From positions 1 through 64,000 of the IMG/VR virus record IMGVR_UViG_3300018018_000003: a stretch of 64,000 nt of DNA. The stretch is one strand, 5' to 3'. The position numbers and the translations under genes are program-made. Shown here piece after piece: positions 52,446 through 60,635 of this stretch. The DNA is from a virus. The notes beneath the pieces are model-generated. The model did not search any database. It saw only the letters and a list, made by a program, of their open reading frames with translations, and was not told the origin of the DNA. How positions within the stretch are numbered: position 1 is the first letter of the stretch; every line of letters begins with the position of its first letter.

Positions 52446-52751
52446 TTAGTTATATTCTTTTCTTTTCAGGTAATCAAGGTTTCTCACGCAGACAGTCTTG
52501 CCGTCTATCTTAATAAATTTAACCAATCCTTTTTTTTCAAGATTTTTGAATCGCAATGCCATTGCCCTCTTGTCCCCTCTTGACATCCCTGCAAAGGCTG
52601 GCAGTTCGCTTTTTTTAAGATTTATCTTCTGATGATGATAGACGACAATCACATAGTCATTGACGACATCGGTTGCCATGGGACGCTTGTTGTTTATCCT
52701 GTGAAGCCATCCCCTGAGCCTTTCTATTGCCGATATTAACCGCCTGAACAT
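52446..52751 (-). CDS. Winged-helix-like basic protein
   Basis: A 101-aa basic protein. The first 24 residues are an Arg-rich helix. The rest reads INLKKSELPAFAGMSRGDKR, then LRFKNLEKKGLVKFIKIDGKTV, like a small winged helix. A later start at Met25 is possible because the promoter at 52760-52790 leaves almost no leader. It heads the nucleotide/glycan operon. Confidence 0.55.
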   Translation of the reverse strand: MFRRLISAIERLRGWLHRINNKRPMATDVVNDYVIVVYHHQKINLKKSELPAFAGMSRGDKRAMALRFKNLEKKGLVKFIKIDGKTVCVRNLDYLKRKEYN

Positions 52752-52759
52752 AACGCTTA

Positions 52760-52790
52760 CAAAATTAAACTAATTTCCTTAAAATGCAAA
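52760..52790 (-). promoter_or_regulatory. Bacteroidota-type promoter (class A)
   Basis: On the minus strand TTTG (52787-52790), a 19-base spacer and TAATTTTG (52760-52767) match the consensus exactly. The bases before the -7 box, TTAGTTTAATTTTG, recur at 57589 and 59881. Transcription would start only a few bases before the ATG at 52751. The -33 box overlaps the T tail of the terminator just upstream. Confidence 0.75.
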
Positions 52791-52817
52791 ACCCCTCCCA
52801 TACTGAAACGAGAAGGG
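52788..52817 (-). terminator. Terminator-like hairpin after the HNH gene
   Basis: On the minus strand, CCCTTCTC (52810-52817) pairs with GGGAGGGG (52792-52799) using two wobble pairs over eight positions, and TTTT follows. It would end the transcript of the genes at 52886-53925. Its tail coincides with the -33 box of the next promoter. The 134-base gap at 52752-52885 holds no other gene. Confidence 0.55.
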
Positions 52818-52885
52818 TGCTATGCAAGAAAAGCAGATGTACCATATCGGCAATATGGCATGACAAAGGTAATAAATATTTTGAA

Positions 52886-53358: not shown

Positions 53359-53925
53359 TCAATCTTCTTCAAGTGTATTGTCTTTTTTTTCATATTCCCC
53401 AATTTCAAAAAATTCTCTATTTTTTCTTTCGTTTTCTATTATCCATTTTTCATAAGTCAAAATTTCTTCTTTATTTTCTTCTTTAAGAACATTATTATCT
53501 TTATTATCCTTATTGTTTGTGTTACTTGGTAGCTCCTTGGTTGTCACTTGGTTGTTACTTGGTTGTTCTTTTTCTGTTTTTACTATTTGGTATCTCCCCC
53601 AATTATTGACAGTTACGATGGAATATTGGTTGTTACTTTCTATTGAAATCATATCAAATTCCGGACTTGCGAATTTTTGCATCCATTTATATATGGTTGA
53701 GCCGTCAATATTGAGTTCTTCTTCTGCCTTAAATCTCCCAAAAAGGAATTGTCCTGGCAGTATCTTTACAGTTGTTTCTCCCCTTCCTATTTTAATCGGA
53801 ACAAATCTTTCCTTATAGCTCGTTCTGCACAGACACCATATCCATATTTTTAATGCTGTCTGATTTGTAAACACCTGACTGTTTATTATACTTCTGAATA
53901 ATCTCAATGATCCTTCTTCAATCAT
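53359..53925 (-). CDS. Replisome-organizer/DnaD-like N-domain protein
   Basis: A 188-aa protein. SLRLFRSIINSQVFTNQTALKIWIW, split here as SLRLFRSIIN and TALKIWIWCLCRTSYKE, then PGQFLFGR and STIYKWMQKFA resemble the winged-helix N-domain of phage replication organizers. An Asn/Lys/Glu-rich linker and a helical end follow. It may load the host helicase or the phage helicase-primase. It sits just after a terminator-like structured RNA. Confidence 0.65.
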   Translation of the reverse strand: MIEEGSLRLFRSIINSQVFTNQTALKIWIWCLCRTSYKERFVPIKIGRGETTVKILPGQFLFGRFKAEEELNIDGSTIYKWMQKFASPEFDMISIESNNQYSIVTVNNWGRYQIVKTEKEQPSNNQVTTKELPSNTNNKDNKDNNVLKEENKEEILTYEKWIIENERKNREFFEIGEYEKKDNTLEED

Positions 53926-53942
53926 TTCAATAAAATAAAAAA

Positions 53943-54019
53943 GCCGGTCTCAAACAATAAGCCCACTCAAGGAAGGGATCAGCCAAAACCTCTTGTGGGT
54001 GTTGCTTGCCGAGACCGGC
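53943..54019 (-). ncRNA. Structured RNA B / leader hairpin with U tail
   Basis: Nine-base perfect arms (GCCGGTCTC at 53943-53951 and GAGACCGGC at 54011-54019) enclose a 59-base interior with an inner CCCAC/GTGGG pairing. On the minus strand the hairpin is followed by TTTTTTATTTTATT and then by the ATG of the gene at 53925. This is either a terminator or an attenuator before that gene. The 5' arm can also fold on itself (GCCG with CGGC), so two exclusive shapes are possible. Confidence 0.6.
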
Positions 54020-54070
54020 AATATTTTTAATTGAATAAATTTTATTTATCATCTGATCCCTATTACAATG

Positions 54071-54078
54071 CAAATATA
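54071..54078 (-). promoter_or_regulatory. -7 box before structured RNA B
   Basis: TATATTTG on the minus strand is an exact -7 box. The nearest -33-like word, CTTG at 54102-54105, is 23 bases away, slightly too far. If active, transcription starts near 54064 and runs through structured RNA B into the gene at 53925. Confidence 0.4.
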
Positions 54079-54155
54079 ATTAATTTTCTTTACCCACAGT
54101 ACAAGTATTTAATTATTTTTAAAGAATTATTAAAAAATAACTATCGTATCAACGG

Positions 54156-54299
54156 CTACCCATTGCGTTCCGTCCCAATGACATCGGCAGTATTTATATT
54201 AGCGAGGATGAAACTATTTGGATTTTTTGGATCTATCCTTACAAGCGTTCCTGGCTGAACTGATTGTCCTGAATTATTTCTTAACCACAATGTATTCAT
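54156..54299 (-). CDS. Small protein, possibly frameshifted
   Basis: A 47-aa ORF from the ATG at 54297-54299. The reading NTLWLRNNSGQSVQPGTLV, then RIDPKNPNSFILANI and IGT resembles small phage surface proteins that bear a 'PGxLVxID' strand. Near its end another frame opens (HWDGTQWVAVDT, stop at 54130), so the natural protein may be longer and broken by an indel. Codon use supports coding up to the switch. Confidence 0.45.
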   Translation of the reverse strand: MNTLWLRNNSGQSVQPGTLVRIDPKNPNSFILANINTADVIGTERNG

Positions 54300-54317
54300 A
54301 AAACTATTTTTAAAGAA

Positions 54318-54417
54318 GTGATCCCGGCGATATTGGAAAATATGAAAACTAAACCTTAACTAACCTATGAAAAAATCACTCCTGATGTCTAACCTGAAAA
54401 GAACGGACCGGGATCAC
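54318..54417 (-). ncRNA. Structured RNA A next to tRNA-Thr
   Basis: Ten-base perfect arms (GTGATCCCGG at 54318-54327 and CCGGGATCAC at 54408-54417) enclose an 80-base interior. It lies five bases downstream of tRNA-Thr on the same (minus) strand, so both could come from one transcript and be cut apart. On the minus strand it is followed by TTCTTTAAAAATAG, so it is a weak terminator at best. No known RNA family is recognised. Confidence 0.5.
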
Positions 54418-54422
54418 CCTTG

Positions 54423-54495
54423 AGCTTCCGGACGGAATCGAACCGCCAACCAAGTGATTACAGATCACTCGTTCTTCCAGTTGAACTACGGAAGC
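54423..54495 (-). tRNA. tRNA-Thr (anticodon TGT)
   Basis: The minus strand folds into a full cloverleaf. The seven-base acceptor stem is perfect (GCTTCCG with CGGAAGC). The D stem is GTTC/GAAC. The anticodon stem AGTGA/TCACT encloses the loop TCTGTAA with anticodon TGT, which reads ACA (Thr). The T arm GGCGG/CCGTC encloses TTCGATT, with one G-T pair. The 3' end reads TCA, so CCA would be added. It is transcribed leftward with the structured RNA next to it. Confidence 0.93.
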
Positions 54496-54640
54496 ATGTT
54501 TGCGGAGTTAAAACGTCATCCTCCGCTGATGCCAGCCAACGATCTGGTCAATAAGTGGCAGATATTTAATCTGACTTTTTCACGCTTCGATCCATAACCC
54601 ATGCATAGGTATTTGGCCACATATCTTTAAAGAACTTTAT

Positions 54641-54668
54641 TTTGTTGTTAAAATCCACAACAAAGATA
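54641..54668 (-). promoter_or_regulatory. Perfect inverted repeat overlapping a -7 box
   Basis: TTTGTTGT (54641-54648) and ACAACAAA (54657-54664) form a perfect eight-base palindrome with an eight-base gap. The -7 box TATCTTTG (minus strand, 54661-54668) overlaps its right arm. No -33 box is at the right distance. This looks like an operator over a promoter for the tRNA/RNA region; expected start about 54654. The stretch 54496-54796 has no clear gene apart from a possible 18-30 aa peptide at 54566-54658. Confidence 0.5.
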
Positions 54669-54736
54669 TATAAAAATATTATATTTTCATTAATTCAAAC
54701 GACTTTCTGCACTGTTTTACATTTTATCAAAGGAGA

Positions 54737-54759
54737 TGGTATCACAAATTGTGACACCA
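54737..54759. promoter_or_regulatory. 23-base operator-like palindrome
   Basis: TGGTATCACAA and TTGTGACACCA flank a central A; the right half reads TGGTGTCACAA on the other strand, so 10 of 11 positions agree. It lies between the stop of the metallophosphoesterase gene and the -7 box for the RNA region. Such spacing is typical of repressor sites. It is not followed by a T run, so it is not a terminator. Confidence 0.5.
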
Positions 54760-54796: not shown

Positions 54797-55804
54797 TCAG
54801 TCCCTATAGACTTTTCCTTTATGAATCCTGAGGTTTTCCACATTAAACTCCCTGCCGTCAATGTCAAGATAAGCAAACCCATGGTTCCAGTTATTAAGAA
54901 GAGCCCATTCCGGGTGAAGGCCACAGAGACACCCTATAGACCATGTGCCCATCAGCTTCTCGTTAATATCTTTTTCTGAATGGGAGCTTGACCTATGATA
55001 GTGCGATACAAGAGCAGATGACAGGGCTTTAAGAAACAATCCCCTCGCAGCATTCACGGCAGTAATCACCCTTGACTGAAATTCGTGGCCATGGATAATA
55101 GGGAGCCGTCCGGCATAGATGATCTGTTTCTCTACAATGGTTACGTTATTAATTCCCCTCATCTTGATTATGTTGCCGAGCTTAAACTCTTCCATATCGA
55201 GGAGCTCAGGTGCTTTTACCCTGAGATATGCCTCAAGGCGCTCTTCATGGTTTCCGAGCTTCCAGTATATCTTTGTCCCCGGGAATGTCTTTTGAAGGAG
55301 CTCAAGGAATCCCACCCATAGCCATAGTTCATCATTAAGAGACCGCTTGCGTGGATCTCTTTTAAATTTTGATAGCTGGTAGTAATCGAGTCCATCACCA
55401 TTGATGAGGATGAAATTCAGTTTTCTGTTGACGGCATGGTTTATCATAGCCTCCACCGCTATCTTATCATGGTATGGCGCATGGGTATCGGAAAAAAGAA
55501 GCCCATGCGTCTCTGATATATGGACGGGTTTCCAGATGTCGCATTCCGATTCAGGGACGCTAAAGACATTGGGCTTTCCTGCAGGACGGTAGAACTTCGT
55601 ATTTGTTACTTTATCCCTGTTTTTATTGCCGTTCTGCCCTATATAATCCCTTATTATGCCCCTTACATGTTCCGTATTATGAAACAGTTCGGAATTTTCA
55701 GCGTATATTTTTTTTGCCAGCGAGCGAGCCGCGGCATCGGGGAATCTTTCAAGATACTGCAATACTACTTCTCCGGTTAGTTTTGCACTGCTTTTCTTCT
55801 TCAT
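54797..55804 (-). CDS. Metallophosphoesterase (calcineurin-like)
   Basis: A 335-aa protein. Residues 1-95 are a helical, HTH-like N-terminus. The phosphoesterase motifs follow: FSDTHAPYHD (104-113), NGDGLDYY (135-142), LGNHEERL (183-190), HGHE (238-241) and SHYHRSS (267-273). These bind the two metals. Substrates of phage relatives include DNA ends, RNA or nucleotides; none can be chosen here. Confidence 0.8.
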   Translation of the reverse strand: MKKKSSAKLTGEVVLQYLERFPDAAARSLAKKIYAENSELFHNTEHVRGIIRDYIGQNGNKNRDKVTNTKFYRPAGKPNVFSVPESECDIWKPVHISETHGLLFSDTHAPYHDKIAVEAMINHAVNRKLNFILINGDGLDYYQLSKFKRDPRKRSLNDELWLWVGFLELLQKTFPGTKIYWKLGNHEERLEAYLRVKAPELLDMEEFKLGNIIKMRGINNVTIVEKQIIYAGRLPIIHGHEFQSRVITAVNAARGLFLKALSSALVSHYHRSSSHSEKDINEKLMGTWSIGCLCGLHPEWALLNNWNHGFAYLDIDGREFNVENLRIHKGKVYRD

Positions 55805-56670
55805 ATATTATTCTTTTTACAAAAGTCATCTATCCTTTTATACAACTCAATATTCCTTTCTATCATCCTCAGCCTTACAAATGACATCACATCAATCTGT
55901 TTCTTGAGTGTGCCCCATAGGTGAGTATAACGATATTTGGACTCTATGTCCATGGCGTCCTTACAGAGTATTTTAACCTTATCCCTTAGATTATTCTTCT
56001 TTATCAGGCATGCCCCGAAGTATTGCTCCGACCATAAGTTATGATGGATGAGGAGATGCTTATAATCTTCAAAGATAACCTTATGGTTCTCTAGTGCAAA
56101 GATATATTCCCTGCTGACAGCGAGCCATTCCTTAAAGAAATCAAGATTATGACCCCCGCATATCCCGCAGTTATAGGCAAAGTCATTTACCTCATTATCC
56201 GTTATGGATTTGGGTCTTAAAGGAGCATTATTCCAGCACTCTCGAAGTATGTTATAATATTGATAGCCCTCTTCATTAAAGGGTTCCTGGCTCTGAAAGC
56301 AAAGGCGTGCATTGAGTATCTTTGGAGGTAATGGTCCCCATAGGAGCACATCGTTATCTAGATGAATAAAAGGTTTATCCTGCATGGCATAGGCGAGCAT
56401 CTTCCCGTATGCCCAGAAATACCTTACGACATCTTTTACACCGGATAACTCATTTAGCTTATTAGAATAGTCTGTTATGGGAAGATCGAATTGTCTGAAG
56501 AGGTCAATGCCCCAGTCATTAGATACAAACTGCACCTCCTTAAAGTGACGGGAGGCGCAGCGTATTGCAAGAGCCGTAGTGAATATAAGATCACTAAACT
56601 TGACGAATCCCCCTGTGTTGCCGAATGACTCGTCTGGGTTGTAGTAAGAAAACACCGCTTTTCTTATCAT
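55801..56670 (-). CDS. DUF6734-like glycosyltransferase
   Basis: A 289-aa protein. It starts IRKAVFSYYNPDESFGN and holds PFIHLDNDVLLWGPLP (about 100-115), with a DxD-type metal site, then YNCGICGGHNLDFF and HNLWSEQYFGACL. This matches the DUF6734 group of GT-A-like enzymes. It lies apart from the main glycan island and four bases from the metallophosphoesterase gene. Confidence 0.72.
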   Translation of the reverse strand: MIRKAVFSYYNPDESFGNTGGFVKFSDLIFTTALAIRCASRHFKEVQFVSNDWGIDLFRQFDLPITDYSNKLNELSGVKDVVRYFWAYGKMLAYAMQDKPFIHLDNDVLLWGPLPPKILNARLCFQSQEPFNEEGYQYYNILRECWNNAPLRPKSITDNEVNDFAYNCGICGGHNLDFFKEWLAVSREYIFALENHKVIFEDYKHLLIHHNLWSEQYFGACLIKKNNLRDKVKILCKDAMDIESKYRYTHLWGTLKKQIDVMSFVRLRMIERNIELYKRIDDFCKKNNI

Positions 56671-60577: not shown

Positions 60578-60635
60578 CAAACCAGGACAAGCCGAAAACC
60601 TGTAAAAGAGTAGGCAAAATTTAAAACACACGACA

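Follow-up and report, generated by a model that had tools for sequence, protein, structure and literature searches.

Two structured RNA elements, A and B, lie one behind the other on one strand of a phage genome, with B next to a replication gene. Do they control that gene, and do they belong together? The DNA analysed, called the window (W) here, comprises positions 1 to 64,000 of virus record IMGVR_UViG_3300018018_000003 (65,958 bases in all). The original prediction had described a tRNA-Thr gene followed by A and B and had proposed that these may be processed small RNAs or attenuators. Control of replication genes by RNA is well known in plasmids and, to our knowledge, little described in phages; a literature search with subscription journals mostly outside its reach returned no paper on such RNA control in Bacteroidota phages. 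On comparison of relatives, A and B are almost certainly real, conserved RNA elements, and B is very probably a regulatory leader.

Layout of the locus

The predicted components were recovered on the minus strand. Both perfect stems were confirmed, the ten-base stem of A with 10/10 pairs (arms 54408-54417 and 54318-54327) and the nine-base stem of B with 9/9 pairs (arms 54011-54019 and 53943-53951), the latter followed by TTTTTTATTTT. The tRNA and the small ORF between A and B are present, and the "replication-initiation-like" gene was identified by using PHROGs. The main features are:

55801-56670, minus: DUF6734 gene, conserved in this upstream position; element C (see below) is predicted to target its start codon region
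54797-55804, minus: metallophosphoesterase gene
54422-54495, minus: tRNA-Thr, anticodon TGT (Rfam tRNA, 61.7 bits); window-specific cargo upstream of A
54318-54417, minus: element A, long-range hairpin with 10-bp closing stem and large unstructured U-rich loop
54281-54317, minus: 37-nt imperfect direct repeat, copy 1, flanking the inserted 47-aa ORF
54156-54299, minus: 47-aa ORF between A and B
54090-54126, minus: 37-nt imperfect direct repeat, copy 2, on the other flank of that ORF
53943-54019, minus: element B, terminator hairpin with closing stem S2 (GCCGGTCTC/GAGACCGGC)
53359-53925, minus: DnaD-like helicase loader (PHROGs, E 9.5e-23), the replication organizer behind the leader
52446-52751: gene forming the conserved flank in relatives

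The 47-aa ORF resembles a frameshifted fragment of a gene family that is located elsewhere in relatives; it has a homologue in G001 (E 1e-6), and the other frame continues WDGTQWVAVDTIVIF. ARAGORN detected no tRNA in five relatives (G001, G006, G008, G011 and G015). The window's phosphoesterase, helicase loader and HNH genes were missing from the aligned relatives when gene order was compared. As far as sequence comparison goes, the tRNA and the small ORF are insertions specific to the window. A single unit of tRNA, A and B is not supported: relatives carry A and B without the tRNA, the phosphoesterase or the small ORF. Elsewhere in the window, a DUF805b RNA (RF02914, 41.8 bits) was found at 60582-60616 on the plus strand, in the opposite-strand region.

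Search for relatives

The same locus was found unchanged in three contigs, with no other blastn matches. Comparing the region by blastn with phage records and with 25 related records gave nothing useful and no diverged relatives, so conservation was sought by gene order. Terminases of an unclassified podovirus and of phages of Flavobacterium, Cellulophaga, Tenacibaculum and Maribacter resemble that of the window only distantly (at most 32 % identity); a terminase search added about 20 phages at 63-84 % identity. Between the DUF6734 gene and the counterpart of the gene at 52446-52751, relatives carry their own replication organizer, preceded by recognisable, diverged A and B. In the interval from the DUF6734 gene to the replication-organizer gene, A was found in most related phages and B in 12. 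Searches with DUF6734, sequence patterns and proteins added L194, L195, L196, L203, L205, L266 and L414, as well as L405 for A only. B was missing in G006, G011 and L193; relatives of the window's helicase loader (L005-L015) carried neither A nor B upstream, and no A or C motif was found within the first 50 kb of the Elemovirus genomes MT497078 and MW202828. The phages are known from metagenomes and their hosts are presumably Bacteroidota. A type-P3 twister ribozyme (RF03154, 51 bits) was noted in the related phage G011 (L191:440-511, minus).

Several apparently unrelated replication-organizer proteins follow the same leader type (window 53359-53925; G001, G015, G024), so that leader and replication gene seem to have been exchanged separately.

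Element A

Element A folds at -26.5 kcal/mol (z = -3.07; 0/200 shuffles as good; folds here and below are ViennaRNA predictions). It was found in ten phages (W, G001, G006, G011, G024, L195, L203, L205, L266 and L405) as a stem of 9-10 bp around a loop of about 40-85 nt. At its start the loop carries CGTTCTTT(T)CA, exactly or with slight variation, and AGGTTAG often occurs inside. In the window the motif reads:

54395-54405, minus: CGTTCTTTTCA, right after the 5' arm of A, common to relatives

Across nine sequences 86/90 stem pairs are standard and 7/10 positions have changed on both sides. Compensatory stem changes in relatives, which the original prediction had named as the support to look for, were thus found for A, and also for B (below).

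A lies between the last gene of the upstream cluster and the promoter element of B. A U-run follows its 3' arm in most phages, less clearly in the window. The simplest role is that of a transcription terminator of the upstream cluster, that is, a terminator-like 3' element, which perhaps leaves a 3'-end RNA. No consistent gene-start target was found for the loop. No copy of the motif was found in 395 bacterial genomes from a single phylum (that of G026), hence A looks phage-borne; searching with the exact stem pattern gave, outside the identical contigs, mostly matches taken as chance. In L405, which differs in gene order and terminase, A (L405:7752-7850) lies between two small genes.

Anatomy and conservation of element B

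Element B folds at -36.5 kcal/mol (z = -4.15; 0/200 shuffles as good). The two-way folding proposed for its 5' arm was confirmed, in that a local hairpin, S0, competes with the closing stem. The original prediction had overlooked a 9-bp helix, S1, by which the 5' end of the transcript pairs into the B loop, as well as a promoter element and an open leader ORF through B:

54071-54078, minus: TATATTTG, -7 promoter element of the TAnnTTTG type, at similar distance in relatives
54053-54061, minus: S1a, AGGGATCAG, 5' end of the B leader
53927-54052, minus: leader ORF of 41 codons through B; its stop lies just before the ATG of the replication gene
54006-54021, minus: S0, local hairpin TTGCCG-GTCT-CGGCAA
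53962-53999, minus: S3, hairpin CCCAC/GTGGG inside S2, with S1b in its loop
53974-53982, minus: S1b, CTGATCCCT, complementary to S1a
53932-53942, minus: U-run TTTTTTATTTT after B
53908-53916, minus: S1c, weak candidate GAAGGATCA, inside codons 4-6 of the replication gene

The motif TAnnTTTG corresponds to the -7 consensus of Bacteroidota promoters (PMC7366714). In eight leaders starting at TATATTTG, S1a lies 16-21 nt and S1b 85-98 nt downstream; L414 is similar.

The leaders fall into two types. B1 (W, G015, G016, L205, L266, L414) has S1a at the 5' end, the closing stem S2, the inner S3 with S1b in its loop, and then a U-run. B2 (G001, G024, L194, L195, L196, L203) forms a long hairpin in which S1b is an exact 7-nt bulge (GTCACAG, GTCACGG, GTCACAC or ATTACGG), with no U-run. 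Stem boundaries were set by eye prior to counting. As the MAFFT alignment of B1 misplaces S1, it was excluded from counting, for which the stems were set side by side in register. Pairs in which both partners have changed number 7/9 in S1, 5/7 in S2 and 4/5 in S3 for B1, and 4/7 in S1 and 4/8 in the upper part of S2 for B2.

Pairing is specific to each phage. S1b pairs best with the 5' end of its own phage (2/40,320 reassignments as good) and likewise favours its own gene start region (118/40,320), counts that are not strict probabilities because the known sequences are few (12 of B, 10 of A) and some are closely related. In 9/12 phages none of 72 control gene starts pairs with S1b as strongly as the phage's own; the exceptions are L266 (3/72), the window (8/72) and L205 (26/72). 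The third copy, S1c, sits at the start codon of the replication gene in most relatives; with only a weak copy in the window and none in L205, this start-codon arm is not universal. A search for the order S1a-S2a-S1b-S2b at these stem lengths matched this one locus in most of the B-bearing phages scanned, and gave 68 matches in 2.6 Mb of shuffled strand sequence.

All six B1 leaders contain an ORF (38-48 codons, ATG 0-2 nt after S1a) whose stop falls within -11 to +17 of the gene's ATG. Short frames of 6-7 codons, beginning 6 nt past S1a, occur in three B2 leaders. Rfam gave no match at the gathering threshold for A or for B in the window and 11 relative loci; a ribozyme identity of A or B was rejected, as Rfam gives it no support. 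The anatomy, the conservation and covariation, the position of S1a and the leader ORFs can be read directly from the sequences.

Predicted two-state folding and proposed mechanism

S0 is present in 5/6 B1 leaders. Leader folding predicts two states for W, G015, G016, L205 and L414: before the last arm is made, P(S1) is 0.83-1.00 and P(S0) 0.99-1.00; completion of that arm brings both down to at most 0.01 and lets the terminator form. The same behaviour was seen in just 0-2 of 1000 dinucleotide-shuffled versions of each leader. The two-state fold was not seen in L266. An exclusive antiterminator and U-tailed terminator are accordingly predicted in 5/6 B1 leaders and not in B2. The word "attenuator" in the original prediction has therefore stood up well for B, given the exclusive folds, the U-tailed terminator, the leader ORF and the conservation upstream of replication genes.

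We infer as follows that the leader regulates, which state is ON or OFF, and what triggers the change. A and B would be separate elements that lie between two transcription units in a podovirus-like phage of Bacteroidota. Transcription would start just after TATATTTG, which would put S1a at the extreme 5' terminus of the RNA. Once made, S1b would pair first with S1a, and the helix would enclose S0, in which the 5' arm of the terminator is sequestered; this is the antiterminator state. With S1a undisturbed, the polymerase would read through and S1b would be kept off the gene start codon (ON). If S1a were occupied by a ribosome at the leader start codon, by a protein or by another RNA, S1b would be free and S2/S3 would form the U-tailed terminator (OFF); S1b, then in an exposed loop, might cover the S1c copy at the start codon of its own or of another transcript. 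S1a lies beside the leader ORF start and S1c at the gene start, so S1b would cover one or the other, never both. In B2, with no U-run and S1b in a 7-nt bulge, only the start-codon arm of the switch would remain, and termination cannot be the sole function. By analogy with repY/repZ, translation of the leader ORF could equally switch the gene on by coupling, with the opposite sign.

We regard it as somewhat probable that A is the terminator-like end of the upstream unit and B an attenuator and translational switch of the replication gene that works as described; confidence in this full mechanism is lower than in B as a regulatory leader.

Alternative readings of B

A tentative possibility, compatible with the proposed mechanism and going beyond it, is that B serves as an antisense RNA which the leader itself provides. 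Terminated leaders, about 125 nt long, would accumulate with the number of genome copies, and their exposed S1b would block S1a and S1c on other transcripts, giving a feedback on replication dosage like that of c4 or plasmid copy-number RNAs. The placement of S1b in a loop or an exact 7-nt bulge would suit this, as would the promoter element and terminator that B1 has of its own, and an S1 sequence that varies between phages yet matches within each. Against it, B2 has no terminator for a discrete RNA, and S1c is the weak or absent copy in the window and L205. As putative small RNAs, the kind of product originally suggested, the terminated leader or a 3'-end RNA from A is possible.

Plain intrinsic terminators, conserved only as stems and with no regulation, would explain the U-runs after A in relatives and after B in B1, and the place of A at the end of a gene cluster. 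They need no conserved loop motif in A, however, nor S1 complementarity, a competing S0 or a leader ORF that stops at the start of the following gene, and we consider this reading improbable. Just as improbable is that the selected object is a small protein made from the leader ORF and coupled to the replication gene. The frame is open in 6/6 B1 leaders and the C-terminal halves of the peptides are weakly similar. Against it stand the strong divergence of the peptides, a different register of frame and stems in W and G016, the presence of only 6-7 codons, or none, in B2, and a nonsynonymous compensatory change (Thr to Ile) in S3 of G015/G016.

The least probable reading takes the S1 repeats as DNA operators bound by a phage repressor, with RNA pairing as a by-product of one inverted site. 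In its favour are direct repeats, up to 15 nt long, around S1a and S1c near the promoter element. Against it, S2 and S3 covary as RNA helices with S1b always in their loop or bulge, the S1 motifs are concentrated at the B locus (longer forms only there in G001, G008 and G016; additional single matches elsewhere in W), and the S1c changes in G015/G016 and in L414 turn a Watson-Crick pair into G-U and so keep it, which weakly favours RNA pairing over an operator.

Element C and the DUF6734 gene

A third element lies downstream of the replication gene:

52788-52863 (about), minus: element C, with promoter element TACCTTTG just upstream, a hairpin with TGCCGA loop, TCTGCTTTTCTTG and a terminator

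Counterparts of C occur in nearly all these phages. Rfam gave no gathering match for C, and scanning contigs with a C pattern gave chance-like matches. The single-stranded part of C and the start codon region of DUF6734 are predicted to form a duplex of about 20 nt (-26.8 kcal/mol in the window; 0/84 other starts as strong). When targets were scored over six genomes, DUF6734 was the top orthologue (combined score -7.3, next -4.6), ranking 1, 1, 2, 2, 3 and 2 in the individual genomes. The pairing is weak in L193 and L196. C is predicted to be an RNA antisense to the DUF6734 start; alternatively, the pairing may be one old coincidence kept by descent. In phage G015 (L206, around 6851) the frame of an HNH-like gene overlaps element C.

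That B, as a phage-specific antisense switch, and C, as a small RNA silencing DUF6734, make up a dedicated RNA circuit at the onset of replication is a doubtful extension. If true, three co-evolving S1 copies would provide a dosage feedback on the organizer and possibly mutual exclusion between phages.

Comparison with known systems

The c4 antisense RNA of phages P1/P7 acts on a1b1 and a2b2 targets in an a/b layout. It is a 77-nt antisense RNA at the ant RBS (PMC12197685). Like c4 (RF01695), B displays a short antisense segment in the loop of a structured RNA and differs in sequence between phages; in most relatives it also has a candidate target copy upstream of this segment and a second one, weak in the window and lacking in L205, at a downstream RBS on the same transcript. 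Unlike c4, B precedes a replication gene rather than an antirepressor, has one antisense segment instead of two, carries a nested antiterminator/terminator and a leader ORF, and belongs to Bacteroidota phages. The C4 model gave no match at E<=10 in window 53800-54750 and none at the gathering threshold in the window and 11 relative loci.

In repY/repZ of plasmid ColIb-P9 a pseudoknot activates translation and an antisense RNA is made from the opposite strand. Such leaders have been studied in ColIb-P9 (IncI-alpha), IncB, IncL/M and IncK plasmids (works cited in PMC10724649). B shares with these systems a structured leader ORF before a replication gene, a leader ORF that ends at the gene start, and pairing of a loop with the RBS. 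A leader ORF that overlaps the structure and ends at the replication gene was found in 6/6 B1 leaders. In B, unlike in repY/repZ, the simplest role for the start-codon copy would be inhibition. As the C4 test failed and no transcript from the opposite strand is known, B was classed neither as c4 nor as a plasmid rep leader.

With classical transcription attenuators B1 shares the exclusive antiterminator and U-tailed terminator and the leader ORF; it differs in having no recognisable ligand-binding core or regulatory codons and in serving a phage replication gene. The STAXI motif (RF01728) is likewise a pseudoknot-type RNA near DNA-handling genes of mobile elements (PMC2864571), but consists of tandem short pseudoknots with UUCG loops and gave no match here.

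If the proposed reading is right, RNA sets the timing and amount of the replication organizer, whichever organizer protein follows; unrelated organizers share the leader, so the control would be independent of the protein. The phage-specific S1 code would then be directly readable and testable. By analogy, B, yet matching no Rfam family, is comparable to both c4 and repY/repZ.
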